A DNA stretch of 37,283 bases from Planctomycetota bacterium (GCA_021831565.1 JAKBMM010000029.1:1-37283), one strand, 5' to 3'; shown: positions 210 through 6,028, counted from the first letter of the stretch. Notes: generated by a model not told the origin, from the letters alone. Made by a program: numbers and translations.

Positions 210-602
210 GTGCGACAAAAAGCTATTCTGCACGGCTGCGCCAAAAGCCGCTGGGGCAAGCTATTCACCGCGTTCCTGCCGGCGATCAGCCGAAAGGCCA
301 TGAAAGCCATTGTGACGGAAGTCCGTGGCTGGGGTCTTCAACGGAGTAACGTCCTGGAACTGGAGGAACTGTCGCGGACATTCAATTCGAAAATCCGTGG
401 CTGGGTCACCTATTATGGACGGTACTACCCAACGGCGCTCCGACGTGTCTTCCGCCATCTGAATCGGCGGCTGGTGCGTTGGGCGCAGCGGAAATACAAA
501 CGATTCCGAACCCACGAGCGACGAGCTTGGCACTACCTGCGTCATCTGGCGCAGGGACAACCAGATCTGTTCGCCCACTGGGCCATCGGAATCACGCCAT
601 AA
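210..602 (+). pseudogene. Group II intron reverse transcriptase/maturase, C-terminal fragment
   Basis: About 120 residues match the C-terminal end of bacterial group II intron-encoded proteins: the maturase (domain X) segment with FNSKIRGWVTYYGRYY, followed by a basic tail rich in Arg/Lys and ending near LFAHWAIG. Full-length proteins of this family have roughly 400-600 residues and an N-terminal reverse transcriptase domain with a YADD motif. None of that is present, and an in-frame stop (207-209) lies directly before the GTG. Recognisable similarity begins around AKSRWGKLF. The fragment sits just upstream of intron domains V and VI, as expected for a maturase ORF located in domain IV. It is a 5'-truncated remnant and should have no reverse transcriptase activity. 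Confidence 0.85.
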
Positions 603-1322: not shown

Positions 1323-2141
1323 ATGCCTGAATTACCCGAAGTCGAACATCTGCACCGTACGCTCCAGCCGCTGGTGATGGGCGTCGCCGTTACGGGGGTA
1401 AGAATTCTGCGGCCTGCTTACCTGCGTACGCCTCCGGGGCCGTTTCGTAAACTTGTCGGCCGGTCGGTGCGGAAAACCACCCGGCACGGGAAAAAGATTT
1501 TTTGCACTTTCGATGACTCCCAAACGCTTGTGGCGCATCTGGGCATGAGCGGCGGTATGGTGCGGGCAAAACCAGACGATCCTCTCCAACCACACACCCA
1601 TATTGTTTTTGATCTCGCCTCCGGATGGCAACTCCGGATGCATGATCCCCGGCGATTTGGCGGGTTGTGGCTTTATTCTTCCCCGGAAGAAGCGCACGAG
1701 CGCCACGTCCATGAAGTCCTGGGAGTGGACGCCCTGGAACTTGCGCCGAAACACCTGCGGCACTGGAACTCATCTTCGGCCCGGCTCAAGACCGCCTTGC
1801 TTTCCCAGCGCGACGTGGCGGGATTGGGTAATATTTACATCGACGAATCACTCTGGTTGGCCCGGCTGCATCCGCTGCAGATGGTGAGCCGAATTTCGCC
1901 GGCGCTCCGGGTGTTGCTGGTCAAGCACATCCGCGCCATCTTGCACCGGTCGATTCGCCTGGGTGGAACCACTTTGCGCGATTACCGGAATGTCGCCGGA
2001 CAAAAAGGACGATTCGCCAGCCATCTGGCCGTCTATGGCCAGGCCGGCCAACTCTGCCGGCGCTGTGGAACGCCGTTGGCTTCGCTTCGTGTTTCGGGAC
2101 GCGCCACGGTGTTCTGCCCCGCCTGTCAGCGCCGCAGATGA
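1323..2141 (+). CDS. mutM: Formamidopyrimidine-DNA glycosylase (Fpg/MutM)
   Basis: A bifunctional base-excision repair enzyme that removes oxidised purines such as 8-oxoguanine and nicks the abasic site. The 272-residue length is normal for the family. It begins with the signature MPELPEVE, giving the catalytic N-terminal Pro2 and Glu3 after Met removal, and has the conserved lysine of the HGKK motif (Lys57/58). The helix-two-turn-helix segment contains GLGNIYIDESLW. A C-terminal zinc finger has the pattern C-x2-C-x16-C-x2-C. Nei-type enzymes share the fold, but the PELPEVE start and GLGNIYIDE segment fit Fpg best. The gene lies 23 bases after the response regulator and 132 bases before the NuoL-like gene. 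Confidence 0.96.
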   Translation: MPELPEVEHLHRTLQPLVMGVAVTGVRILRPAYLRTPPGPFRKLVGRSVRKTTRHGKKIFCTFDDSQTLVAHLGMSGGMVRAKPDDPLQPHTHIVFDLASGWQLRMHDPRRFGGLWLYSSPEEAHERHVHEVLGVDALELAPKHLRHWNSSSARLKTALLSQRDVAGLGNIYIDESLWLARLHPLQMVSRISPALRVLLVKHIRAILHRSIRLGGTTLRDYRNVAGQKGRFASHLAVYGQAGQLCRRCGTPLASLRVSGRATVFCPACQRRR

Positions 2142-2273: not shown

Positions 2274-4385
2274 ATGCCGCATTCGGACATACTGCTGAGT
2301 TTGGCCGCCCTGCTGCCGCTGCTGGCGTGCCTTCTGGCGCTGTTACGAAGATCGAAAACGCCGATCGTTGCCGCCTATGTTAGCATCGGCGCAAGTCTGA
2401 TGAGTTTAACCCTGACCCTGTTGGCCATCGCCCGCCGTTTGGGCCGCGGTGGGATGGCGGGCGCTATCCATCAGCGGCTGGGACTCTTTTGTTGGCTGCC
2501 ATTGCCTGGAGGATATCCTCCCGTACCGCACCAGGGGCTGACCTTCGGCGTATCGGTCGATTCTTTGAGCCTGGTCTTTTTCCTGCTGGTTCTGCTGCTT
2601 CATTTGCTTTCCGGAGTTTATTCGCTTTCACTGTTGCGGCAGCGGGAAATTCACTCTTTATATTTTGCCGGAACCAATCTATTTACCTTCAGCGTGCTGG
2701 CCATGCTCATCTCCGCCAATATCCTGCAGCTTTATGCGTTTCTTGTCCTCGCCGGAATCGGGGCATTCTGCGTCGGTTTTACGGCGTGGCGGTCCGATGA
2801 CCGTGCCGCGCCCCGCCGGCTTTTGACGGGGGCCATCGTGGCTGATGCACTTTTTCTCATTGGAATGGGTATTCTGCTGGCGCATGGTCCCGTCAGCATT
2901 TTGACCGTGCGCCCGCGGGCGGGCGAACTTATTGTGCCGGCAAGCGTGGTTCCCGCCGTGGGGAGCCATGCCCCTGCGTACATTTTCCACTTCAGCGGTC
3001 CGCCGGGATTTCTGGGCCTGGGATGGATGGATTGGGTGGGTATCTGCCTGCTCGCCGGTGCTATGGCCCGATCGGCGCAATTTCCTTTTCACTGCTGGCC
3101 GATGGATTTTCTTCCCATGCCGTCGCCGGCCAACGCTCTGATCGGCGGCGCCCTGATCGCCGTTTGCGGACCTTATTTGTTGGCCCGGTTGTTTCCCCTG
3201 CTGAACCTGAATATCCGGCTGGTGGCGGCCATCTGCGGCGCCACCACCCTGACCATCGCCGCACTGGTGGCGCTGGTGCAGACCGACATTAAACGCCTGG
3301 TGGCTTGGCTGCTGATTGCCTGGACGAGTCTTGCGTTTCTGCTTCTGGGAGCCGGCGCCTATCGGGTCGGCGTCCTGGAATCCATCCTGGCCTGCCTGGC
3401 CGCCGCAACGCTGTTTCTGGTGGTCGGAAGCGTGCTGGGCGCGGTGGGGGGGCAACGCGATATTCGCCTGATGGGGGGCCTTTGGGCGAAGCTGCCGGTC
3501 ACGGCCGGCGCGGCGTTGTTGATCACCATGTCGGCGACGGGACTGCTGGCGTTGGGAGGTACTCCGGCTTTACAAGTTGGTTTGACATATCTTGAACATT
3601 ATGCATCCGCCATCGGTGGTTATGGACGGCTTCTTTTCTGGGCGCCCGCTCTGGTCGGCTATCTCCTGCCTCTGGCCATGTGCCGATGGTGGTGGCTGGT
3701 ATTCGCAGGCCGGGCCAGGAGCGTGTTGCCCGCCGGAGTCTCGGAATCTCCGGTCCGCACCCTGCCGATCCTCCTGTTGACTTTGGGAATTCTCACGGCG
3801 CAACAGCCGTGGATCGGTCTGACCAAACTGCTGGTCAGACCGGCGCCTGGGGCGTTCCGGGCGGCCATCTTCCCCCCTCTGACGGGGACTACGGTCGGCC
3901 TGATCATTGCCCACCTGCGCTGGGCATGGCCGGCGGTGCTGGCCCTGATCGCGGCGATCTATTTTGTCGACCTGCAGTACGCCGATCGTATTCGCCGCTT
4001 TCCGGGTTTAAACCTGATTCATCGCTGGCTCAATCAGGATATGTTTTTTTCTGATTTGTATACGGCGTCGCTGGGCCGACCGGTTCGGCTTCTGGCGCAG
4101 GGGTTCGCCTTCCTTGACAAATGGATCGTGGGATGGGCGTTGCTTACGGGCACCCTGATCCTGCGCCTGGGCGCGTTGATCTGCGCGGCTTGGGAACGAC
4201 GCGTTCTCGAATTTTCCATCGGCGGACGCAATCCCCAGCGGGCCGGTTGGGGTGTTTTTCGCAGTGCGGCGCCCGGCGCCCAGGTATGGCGATCCCTGCT
4301 GCTTTTGTTGTTGCTGATCGTTCTGTTCTTTTTTATTGCCCTCCTGCTGGCGCCGCACGGATGGTCTTACCCGGCCCGGTTATGA
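2274..4385 (+). CDS. NuoL-like membrane protein with lost proton-channel residues
   Basis: A 703-residue polytopic protein of the complex I / Mrp antiporter family, closest to NuoL. It has the long run of hydrophobic helices and a NuoL-type C-terminal section (SDLYTASLGRPVRLLA) corresponding to the lateral helix and last transmembrane segment. Family landmarks remain: VSVDSLSL (about 94-100), SAQFPFHCWPMD (267-278) and QTDIKRLVAW (336-345). Aligned by eye to E. coli NuoL, the channel residues are changed: TM5 Glu144 is Ala160 (context LAGIGAF for WEGVGLC), TM7 Lys229 is Arg266, Lys342 is Ala377 and Lys399 is near Leu427. The start has AGGATG nearby. It overlaps the next gene by four bases (ATGA), so translation is probably coupled. 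A proton-pumping role is therefore doubtful; function unknown. Confidence 0.85.
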   Translation: MPHSDILLSLAALLPLLACLLALLRRSKTPIVAAYVSIGASLMSLTLTLLAIARRLGRGGMAGAIHQRLGLFCWLPLPGGYPPVPHQGLTFGVSVDSLSLVFFLLVLLLHLLSGVYSLSLLRQREIHSLYFAGTNLFTFSVLAMLISANILQLYAFLVLAGIGAFCVGFTAWRSDDRAAPRRLLTGAIVADALFLIGMGILLAHGPVSILTVRPRAGELIVPASVVPAVGSHAPAYIFHFSGPPGFLGLGWMDWVGICLLAGAMARSAQFPFHCWPMDFLPMPSPANALIGGALIAVCGPYLLARLFPLLNLNIRLVAAICGATTLTIAALVALVQTDIKRLVAWLLIAWTSLAFLLLGAGAYRVGVLESILACLAAATLFLVVGSVLGAVGGQRDIRLMGGLWAKLPVTAGAALLITMSATGLLALGGTPALQVGLTYLEHYASAIGGYGRLLFWAPALVGYLLPLAMCRWWWLVFAGRARSVLPAGVSESPVRTLPILLLTLGILTAQQPWIGLTKLLVRPAPGAFRAAIFPPLTGTTVGLIIAHLRWAWPAVLALIAAIYFVDLQYADRIRRFPGLNLIHRWLNQDMFFSDLYTASLGRPVRLLAQGFAFLDKWIVGWALLTGTLILRLGALICAAWERRVLEFSIGGRNPQRAGWGVFRSAAPGAQVWRSLLLLLLLIVLFFFIALLLAPHGWSYPARL

Positions 4386-6028
4386 CGATTTTCTCAAAGG
4401 CAATTTTGACTACTTACCAATACAGTTCGATTCTCACCTGCCTTGTCGGTCTGCCGATGGTCGGAGCGTTTTTGCTGATGCTCTTACCCGCCAAACGCAC
4501 TCGTCTTATTCGCAACGGCGCCCTGGCAGTGCTGGCGGGAATGCTGGCCATCGCCATCGCCGCGGCCTGCCTCTTTAACTGGCGTGCAGTCCCGGGTTTC
4601 TCCGCCATGTTGCAGCTTCAAGAAAATCTGCCCTGGATTAGGAATATCAACGCCCATTTCCATCTGGCCGTGAACGCCCTCTCGCTGTTTTTAATTTTGC
4701 TGGTGTGTGGCGCCGGCCTCCTGGCGGCGCTGACCGGTTACGTCATCGATCAGCAGATCAAAACCTATTACGTCATGCTGTTGTTGCTTGCCGGAATGCT
4801 CGTCGGCGCATTGGCCTCGGTCGATCTTCTGTTGTTTTATCTCTTTAGCACCGCGGCGATATTTCCAGGTTATTTTCTTCTTGGGCTATGGGGTGGACCG
4901 GGACGGCGCGCGGCGGCGATGAAATTCGGCCTGTTCGGAATTTTAGGATCGATCGCCCTGCTCCTGGCGATTATCGCTATTGGCTGGTGCACGCGACATT
5001 CCCCCGCCTTTCCGCGCGGAACCTTGAATATGGTGTATCTCACCGGTACCGCCGCAACCCACCGGCTGGCGGACCTTGGCGCACATTCCGGCGTGCCCGC
5101 GGCGGGCTTTGTCGCCCGCGCCGCGTTCTGGCTGTTGCTGTTTTCGTTCGCCGCCCGACTCGGGGTTCCCGGTCTGCACATGTGGCTGCCCGACGTCGTG
5201 AGCGAAGCCTCCGTGCCGGCTCTCATGCTCACGGTGGGCGGCAACCTGGTTCTGGGAGCTTACGGACTGGCGCGGATTACGTTTCCCATGTTTCCCCGCC
5301 TTAGCGCGCACAATCAAATCGCCCTGGGCGTCTGGGCCGCCTGCGCCATTCTTTACGGCGCCCTGTGCGCCCTGGCGCAAAGCGACCTGCGCAAGGTGAC
5401 GGCCTACTGGCTCCTCTCCCAGGCCGGTTATATCCTGCTGGCTTCCCTAATCGGAGTAGCCGCGGCTTTTAATGGCGCGATTCTTTTTATCGCCGGCGAT
5501 TTGGTCACGTTGTTGCTGCTGTTGTGGTCCACTCAAACGCTCGAACGGCGGGCCAATCACCGCGATCTGAACCGCCTGGGCGGAATGGCCCAGCTCCTTC
5601 CCGACTTCTTCTGTTTTTCCATCATTGGCTTTCTCTGTGCCATGGCCTGTCCGAGTCTATGCCTGTTTCCCGCGCTATTTTTGACCATGGTCGGTATATT
5701 TTCCGCCGCCTATCGCGGTCATCTCCCGGCCGTACCCGGTCTGGGCGGGTTGGAACCGGCGCAATGGTTTGTCATGTTCGCCCTCGCCGCCGCCGCCGGC
5801 GCCGTTTTAATCGCGGCGAACATGCTCTGGACAATAGAAAGAATTTTTCTTGGCCAGCCGCGGCCGGAATATCATCACTTCACCGGTTTGACACTTGTGG
5901 AGAAGGGAATTTTCATCATTCTCATCGCCGCCGCATTGGCTTTCGGAATTATACCGGATATGCTTGTGCTGGCGCCGATTCATCAGGCATTGCAATCATT
6001 GGTCTTGGTATCGACGCGGCCTCGGTAA
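4382..6028 (+). CDS. NuoM-like membrane protein with lost proton-channel residues
   Basis: A 548-residue protein of the NuoM/MrpD antiporter-like family with about 14 hydrophobic segments. Landmarks are FYLFSTAAIFPGYFLLGLWG (152-171), HMWLPD (266-271), LGAYGLARI (291-299) and AQSDLRKVTAYWLLSQAGY (332-350). Against E. coli NuoM, TM5 Glu144 is Thr157, TM7 Lys234 is Arg259, Lys265 is Val290 and distal Glu407 is Leu432. The neighbouring helices are otherwise well kept. The ATG at 4382 is chosen because it overlaps the stop of the preceding gene. The frame is open upstream to 4121, but that lies inside the NuoL-like gene. No nuoN, nuoH or peripheral-arm gene is present, so the pair either joins a complex encoded elsewhere or forms a separate membrane unit. 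Confidence 0.85.
   Translation: MTIFSKAILTTYQYSSILTCLVGLPMVGAFLLMLLPAKRTRLIRNGALAVLAGMLAIAIAAACLFNWRAVPGFSAMLQLQENLPWIRNINAHFHLAVNALSLFLILLVCGAGLLAALTGYVIDQQIKTYYVMLLLLAGMLVGALASVDLLLFYLFSTAAIFPGYFLLGLWGGPGRRAAAMKFGLFGILGSIALLLAIIAIGWCTRHSPAFPRGTLNMVYLTGTAATHRLADLGAHSGVPAAGFVARAAFWLLLFSFAARLGVPGLHMWLPDVVSEASVPALMLTVGGNLVLGAYGLARITFPMFPRLSAHNQIALGVWAACAILYGALCALAQSDLRKVTAYWLLSQAGYILLASLIGVAAAFNGAILFIAGDLVTLLLLLWSTQTLERRANHRDLNRLGGMAQLLPDFFCFSIIGFLCAMACPSLCLFPALFLTMVGIFSAAYRGHLPAVPGLGGLEPAQWFVMFALAAAAGAVLIAANMLWTIERIFLGQPRPEYHHFTGLTLVEKGIFIILIAAALAFGIIPDMLVLAPIHQALQSLVLVSTRPR

Follow-up and report, generated by a model that had tools for sequence, protein, structure and literature searches.

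What is a pair of antiporter-like subunits, proteins known for ion movement, doing once the residues of the proton path have been replaced in both partners? The question is raised by a 37,283-nucleotide stretch from a Planctomycetota bacterium (GCA_021831565.1, JAKBMM010000029.1:1-37283), analysed whole and called the window below, in which adjacent genes encode a NuoL-like and a NuoM-like protein, here termed L′ and M′. A sequence-only reading of this DNA had noted that both proteins were changed at the same channel sites with no other nuo gene nearby, and had proposed a module with another role: a scaffold, a regulator of complex I or a transporter of another solute. We find the loss of channel residues to be real and shared across a family of Phycisphaerae, and no other nuo gene was found near the pair in the window. 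The pair is very probably the remnant of a second complex I, an origin which that reading had not seen.

Homology, fold and the proton path

The best profile match of L′ is NuoL, at scores far below the family cut-offs (TIGR01974, 182.1 bits against 407.5; PRK06590, 189.8 against 556), and that of M′ is NuoM, just over the cut-off of TIGR01972 (271.7 against 263.8 bits) and below the PRK05846 equivalog cut-offs (550 and more). PF00361 is the sole Pfam domain in each. AlphaFold2 models (mean pLDDT 91.9 and pTM 0.93 for M′, 80.0 and 0.81 for L′) have the antiporter-like fold in both cases, and their top matches in the Protein Data Bank are the M and L chains of complex I. In the L′ model the last transmembrane (TM) helix is predicted to be kept after a long C-terminal helix. 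Full-length homology, fold, the NuoL-type long helix and the L-M gene order are shared with complex I, whereas the TM5 Glu, central Lys, channel His and distal Lys are missing and other subunits of the same type were not found in the genome. L′ and M′ are NuoL and NuoM by descent and fold, but because these defining features, channel residues and partner subunits, were not found, they should not be annotated as working NuoL and NuoM.

Roles of the positions E144, R175, D178, K229, K399 and D400 in NuoL, E144, K234, K265, H322 and E407 in NuoM, and E133, K217, K247 and K395 in NuoN follow published work (PMC9271201, PMC11496545, PMC13144422). Residues were compared using MAFFT with E. coli NuoL/NuoM, the genome's own nuoL/nuoM products and about 110 other sequences, and HMMER alignments to solved chains. 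L′ corresponds to P0001, and M′ residues are numbered from the ATG at 4382 (P0002, 548 aa). Relative to E. coli NuoL, L′ carries E144 to A160, K229 to R266, H254 to G291, H334 to E369, H338 to A373 and K342 to A377, and keeps D178 (D191), D303 (D338) and K305 (K340). Relative to NuoM, M′ carries E144 to T157, K234 to R259, K265 to V290, H322 to Q347, H348 to D373 and E407 to L432. The assignments of A160, R266, A377, T157, R259, V290 and L432 made earlier by hand thus agree with both kinds of alignment. That of L427 to the distal site of L′ (K399/D400) stands only in part: no Lys or Asp lies at that place, the TM12 segment is shortened and poorly aligned, and the exact partner is uncertain. 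No replacement channel residues at shifted positions, neither the TM5 Glu nor the lysines, were found in the alignments, and an alignment artefact was ruled out, since independent alignments agree and these columns are cleanly aligned in the canonical paralogues.

The loss in M′ is selective. Five of the six channel positions are lost, and the sixth is Arg; among the remaining conserved positions with a charged residue or His, the loss is 3 of 16 (Fisher p = 0.011). In L′, such conserved positions number 29, and 20 of them are gone. Across the 23 M′ sequences compared, the TM5 Glu, the central Lys and the channel His322 occur in none; the central Lys is likewise absent from every L′, and the channel His from most. 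L′ proteins otherwise vary by genus, with K, R, L or F at the K229 site, A, Y, M or F at the K342 site and unrelated residues at the K399 site, and most of those from one genus (g3) still have the TM5 Glu. The earlier statement that the TM7 Lys became Arg in both partners therefore holds for the window and for all M′, and fails for L′ as a group. M′ has also gained a set of invariant residues that canonical NuoM lacks (R259, W343, Q347, W382, D395, E486, E496 and H499), and L′ several Trp and N580. W343 lies one helical turn ahead of Q347, at the position of the channel His322, and these two may seal the M′ path. Taken on residues, proton pumping of the complex I type has probably been lost in the pair.

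Ancestry and selection

L′ and M′ are not the only NuoL and NuoM of their genome. PF00361 was found in 11 places: nuoL, nuoM and nuoN on one contig (C1), two sets on contigs C16 and C27, and the window pair. A canonical complex I is encoded by nuoJ and nuoK adjoining nuoLMN on C1, nuoD-E-F-G on C37 and nuoH on C39, which excludes the pair as the only nuoL/nuoM and answers the earlier call to look for complex I elsewhere in the genome. The scattering of these genes over three contigs recurs in a genome of another genus of the family (G008, genus g8). We call this canonical complex, still in use and close to that of Gemmataceae, type 1, and a vertically inherited Phycisphaerae-type complex type 2.

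In trees of L and of M, all L′ form one clade and all M′ another (SH-aLRT 100 each). Both clades join complex I of other Phycisphaerae (G041, G050), and the genome's own nuoL and nuoM fall elsewhere. Their sister lineage is the type-2 complex I of G008, which has nuoC-D on contig C57, nuoH on C33, nuoM-N on C17 and nuoL on C44 in addition to type-1 nuoDEFG, nuoJKLMN and nuoH. In contrast to the window pair, its channel residues are intact in L, M and N (as they are in L and M of G011) and same-type NuoC, NuoD and NuoH are present. The window's genome has a single complex-I-type NuoD and a single such NuoH, both type 1, its other matches being hydrogenase-like; no type-2 NuoD or NuoH was found there. 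A type-2 catalytic part was not found in any of the seven genera with the pair, where only NuoL and NuoM remain, joined by NuoN in one genus. These results make it very probable that the pair descends from type 2 as its remnant. The family ancestor within Phycisphaerae would have carried both complexes, and type 2 would have shrunk to the distal part of its membrane arm, NuoL and NuoM, with NuoN in a single genus. In the survivors the antiporter fold, the long helix of NuoL and the gene order persist; the TM5 Glu, the central Lys, the channel His and the distal Lys/Glu are gone, so that protons should no longer be moved in the style of complex I.

Partial erosion is seen in one further genome, G010 (genus g10). 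Its type-2 L has K342S and K399R; its M has K234R, K265T, H322A, H348Q and E407Q with E144 kept; its N has K247P and K395R with E133 and K217 kept. No second complex-I-type NuoD or NuoH was found in it. Because the M tree groups G010 with the intact G011 (support 98), this erosion may be a parallel event, independent of the M′ clade, and G010 was rejected as a simple intermediate.

An M′ profile search of the 28 genomes in the same Genome Taxonomy Database (GTDB) family detected the protein in 24, from genera g1, g2, g3, g5, g6, g7 and g9. Among 397 genomes of the class, scores above 600 bits occur only in this family, the best outside it being 403 bits. Where both ends lie on one contig, M′ always comes next after L′, in the same orientation. 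Genus g3 adds a gene behind M′ for a channel-less NuoN relative (N′) that has lost E133, K217 and K247 and has Arg at K395. Apart from a weak match to the type-2 NuoN of G010, N′ was not found in the other genera, so that a third degenerate subunit common to all genomes was rejected.

Between G000 and the sister species G001, dN/dS from a simple estimator on this one species pair was 0.228 for L′ and 0.209 for M′, compared to 0.212, 0.301 and 0.253 for nuoL, nuoM and nuoN. The pair is under purifying selection and is about as constrained as subunits of a working complex I. Since this selection persists and the proteins have invariant residues of their own, they must do something. Moreover, the pair is kept in four g5 genomes (92–93% complete) in which no complex-I-type NuoL, NuoM, NuoD or NuoH was found, only hydrogenase-like members.

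Possible roles of the pair

The part of the sequence-only reading that gave the module a non-pumping role gains from the loss being shared by M′ of 24 genomes in seven genera, from the purifying selection and from the separate canonical complex I. In the reading we favour, L′ and M′ would form a sealed, non-conducting heterodimer, exapted for a membrane function that is structural or otherwise involves no pumping. Judged on sequence, we consider the chances of this to be about even. A role specifically as a membrane scaffold is plausible, if somewhat short of that. More tentative still is the wider proposal of a new, non-bioenergetic membrane module, conserved as L′ and M′ (with N′) in one Phycisphaerae family, in which complex I was stripped to its antiporter arm and the proton channel then removed.

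Several points weigh against these proposals. The non-conducting state is read from residues, and the Arg at TM7 in M′, with a TM7 Lys in some L′, would allow residual ion conduction, as would a distal Asp or Glu retained in 13 of the 23 M′. The trees have long branches, and that of N′ (length 4.6) leaves its origin unplaced. No partner gene conserved with the pair hints at a complex that it would scaffold. All genomes are metagenome-assembled (MAGs), and some absences could be assembly gaps; for the missing complex I of g5 this is unlikely, given four consistent genomes.

Transport of another ion or solute, through a hydrophilic axis rebuilt from polar residues new to M′, Arg259 and Gln347 among them, is unlikely, yet it is the best placed of the alternatives. 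It would account for the invariant polar and aromatic residues gained by M′, some at channel positions (R259, Q347), and for the basic TM7 residue in 23 of 23 M′. However, positions along the old path vary freely in L′ among genera, which is unexpected for one conserved substrate path, and no substrate-linked neighbour genes were found. The nearest known deviation is DabB2, of the MpsA/DabB group of inorganic-carbon transport, whose members are likewise NuoL-like proteins outside complex I. DabB2 has lost only the TM5 Glu among the NuoL-type ion pairs (it has Ile151), and works with DabA (PMC13144422). Unlike L′ and M′, it keeps the TM7 Lys, Asp185, His339/343 and Lys347, and it needs DabA, which the window's genome lacks. 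MrpA and MrpD belong to the same fold superfamily, but Mrp proteins keep the channel lysines (PMC7419157). Membership of a DAB or Mrp system was ruled out, as neither DabA (PF10070) nor MrpG (PF03334) had a match in the genome. No published description of a channel-less NuoL/NuoM pair was found in the open-licence literature searched.

It is more doubtful that the pair serves as an accessory membrane arm of group-4-hydrogenase-like complexes such as those on contigs C16 and C27. These two sets include NuoD-, NuoB- and NuoH-like genes and look like hydrogenase-related complexes that are not [NiFe] hydrogenases, because their large subunits lack a CxxC motif. Such complexes occur in most of the genomes with the pair that were inspected, including g5 without detected complex I, and their antiporter subunits are of the same superfamily. 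They are not linked to the pair on the chromosome, though; they have L- and M/N-like subunits of their own, with the TM5 Glu, the TM7 Lys and the central Lys all present in the L-like type; and they are also found in g8 and g10, which have no M′. Independently of this question, the hydrogenase-4-like cluster on C27 has one NuoL-like gene next to another with which it shares 68% identity (L043:6742-11242), and the similar set on C16 has two that are 45% identical.

We think it very unlikely that substitute residues still let the pair pump or leak protons. The TM7 and distal residues listed above would allow it, and DabB2 shows that a protein with Ile in place of the TM5 Glu can work (PMC13144422), but DabB2, unlike L′, keeps and needs the rest of the NuoL path, and the pattern of central Lys and channel His loss speaks against such a path in either partner. 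Slightly less probable again is a role in the canonical complex I, whether as a subunit, in its assembly or in its regulation, the last of these having been suggested earlier. Paralogy to NuoL/NuoM and the retained C-terminal helix of L′ would fit, yet the pair lies on a different contig from the nuo genes, and its presence in the four g5 genomes argues against any such role. Decay as pseudogenes would suit the stepwise loss of functional residues and of the type-2 catalytic subunits but is highly improbable, with intact frames, pairing conserved in seven genera and new invariant residues, and was dismissed on dN/dS values equal to those of the canonical nuo genes.

The locus and its place in the family

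Coordinates are collected in the table. The M′ open reading frame is listed as 4121-6028, within which 4382 and 4406 are the sensible starts. The ATG at 4382 overlaps the L′ stop and would give 548 aa. In the sister species (92–93% identical), the same ATG meets a TGA after nine codons, whereas the TTG at 4406 and the AAAGG upstream of it are both kept, and several other orthologues likewise start at TTG. M′ thus most likely starts at this TTG, about 20 nucleotides past the L′ stop, and the two frames probably do not overlap, contrary to what had first been read.

Table. Features of the L′–M′ locus, in window coordinates
Feature	Position	Strand	Basis or remark
mutM (formamidopyrimidine-DNA glycosylase)	1323..2141	+	upstream neighbour kept only in g1 and g5
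L′, NuoL-like antiporter-fold protein without proton-path residues, 703 aa	2274..4385	+	profiles, alignments, model
L′ codon A160, TM5 Glu position (E. coli NuoL E144)	2751..2753	+	alignments
L′ codon R266, TM7 Lys position (K229)	3069..3071	+	alignments
L′ codon A377, central Lys position (K342)	3402..3404	+	alignments
L′ residues 590-648, long uninterrupted helix, likely NuoL lateral-helix counterpart	4041..4217	+	model (pLDDT of about 60-83 in this helix)
AAAGG, likely ribosome-binding site for the M′ TTG	4396..4400	+	sequence; G001 has AGAAAGG there
M′, NuoM-like protein, 540 aa from the conserved TTG	4406..6028	+	profiles, alignments, model, start comparison
M′ codon T157, TM5 Glu position (NuoM E144)	4850..4852	+	alignments
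M′ codon R259, TM7 Lys position (K234)	5156..5158	+	Arg in 23/23 M′ of the tree alignment
M′ codon V290, central Lys position (K265)	5249..5251	+	alignments
M′ codons W343 to Q347, a Trp invariant in M′ and specific to it, and the Gln that replaces channel His322	5408..5422	+	
M′ codon L432, distal Glu position (E407)	5675..5677	+	alignments

A scan for promoters and terminators gave no signal greater than in shuffles. The annotated genes directly downstream of M′ are unrelated and on the opposite strand. A conserved partner gene was sought among the neighbours and rejected, since these differ between genera (mutM in g1 and g5, fabF in g2, L-fucose isomerase and others in g3) and share no functional theme; mutM lies directly upstream of the pair in both g1 and g5 even though the L′ proteins of these two genera are only distantly alike. 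At the left end of the window (210-602), a fragment of just 130 aa matches the maturase-specific domain of group II introns (GIIM, E 1.6e-14) and looks like what is left of an intron-encoded protein, or like the 3′ end of one.

Elsewhere in the family, one genome (G023) has two different pairs (contigs C309 and C351; L045, L061), with M′ about 46% and 38% identical to that of the window; this may reflect a genuine second copy or mixed binning. In another (G021), the trio with N′ (L050:6352-9068) has three neighbouring genes, among them a putative thioredoxin reductase gene (79% identical), and orthologues of these three adjoin the canonical nuoLMN in the window's genome (L041:2250-5143). Named records of these sequences are Planctomycetota MAGs. 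Two of them, MAG 18 and MAG 19, share names with MAGs from an acid mine drainage pool of pH 2.97, of which MAG 19 belongs to GTDB order UBA1161 (PMC8357290). Acid sites are the source of many records of the family, and, judging by isolate names, the whole family may be acidophilic.

One family thus holds a natural series: a second complex I that is still intact (g8), L, M and N subunits in partial erosion (g10), and a channel-less pair under selection in seven genera, one of them without detectable complex I. As natural variants in which the fold is kept and the proton path gone, these proteins would be useful for separating the structural from the transport roles of NuoL, NuoM and NuoN, and they may represent a case of a respiratory machine cut down to a part with a new use.

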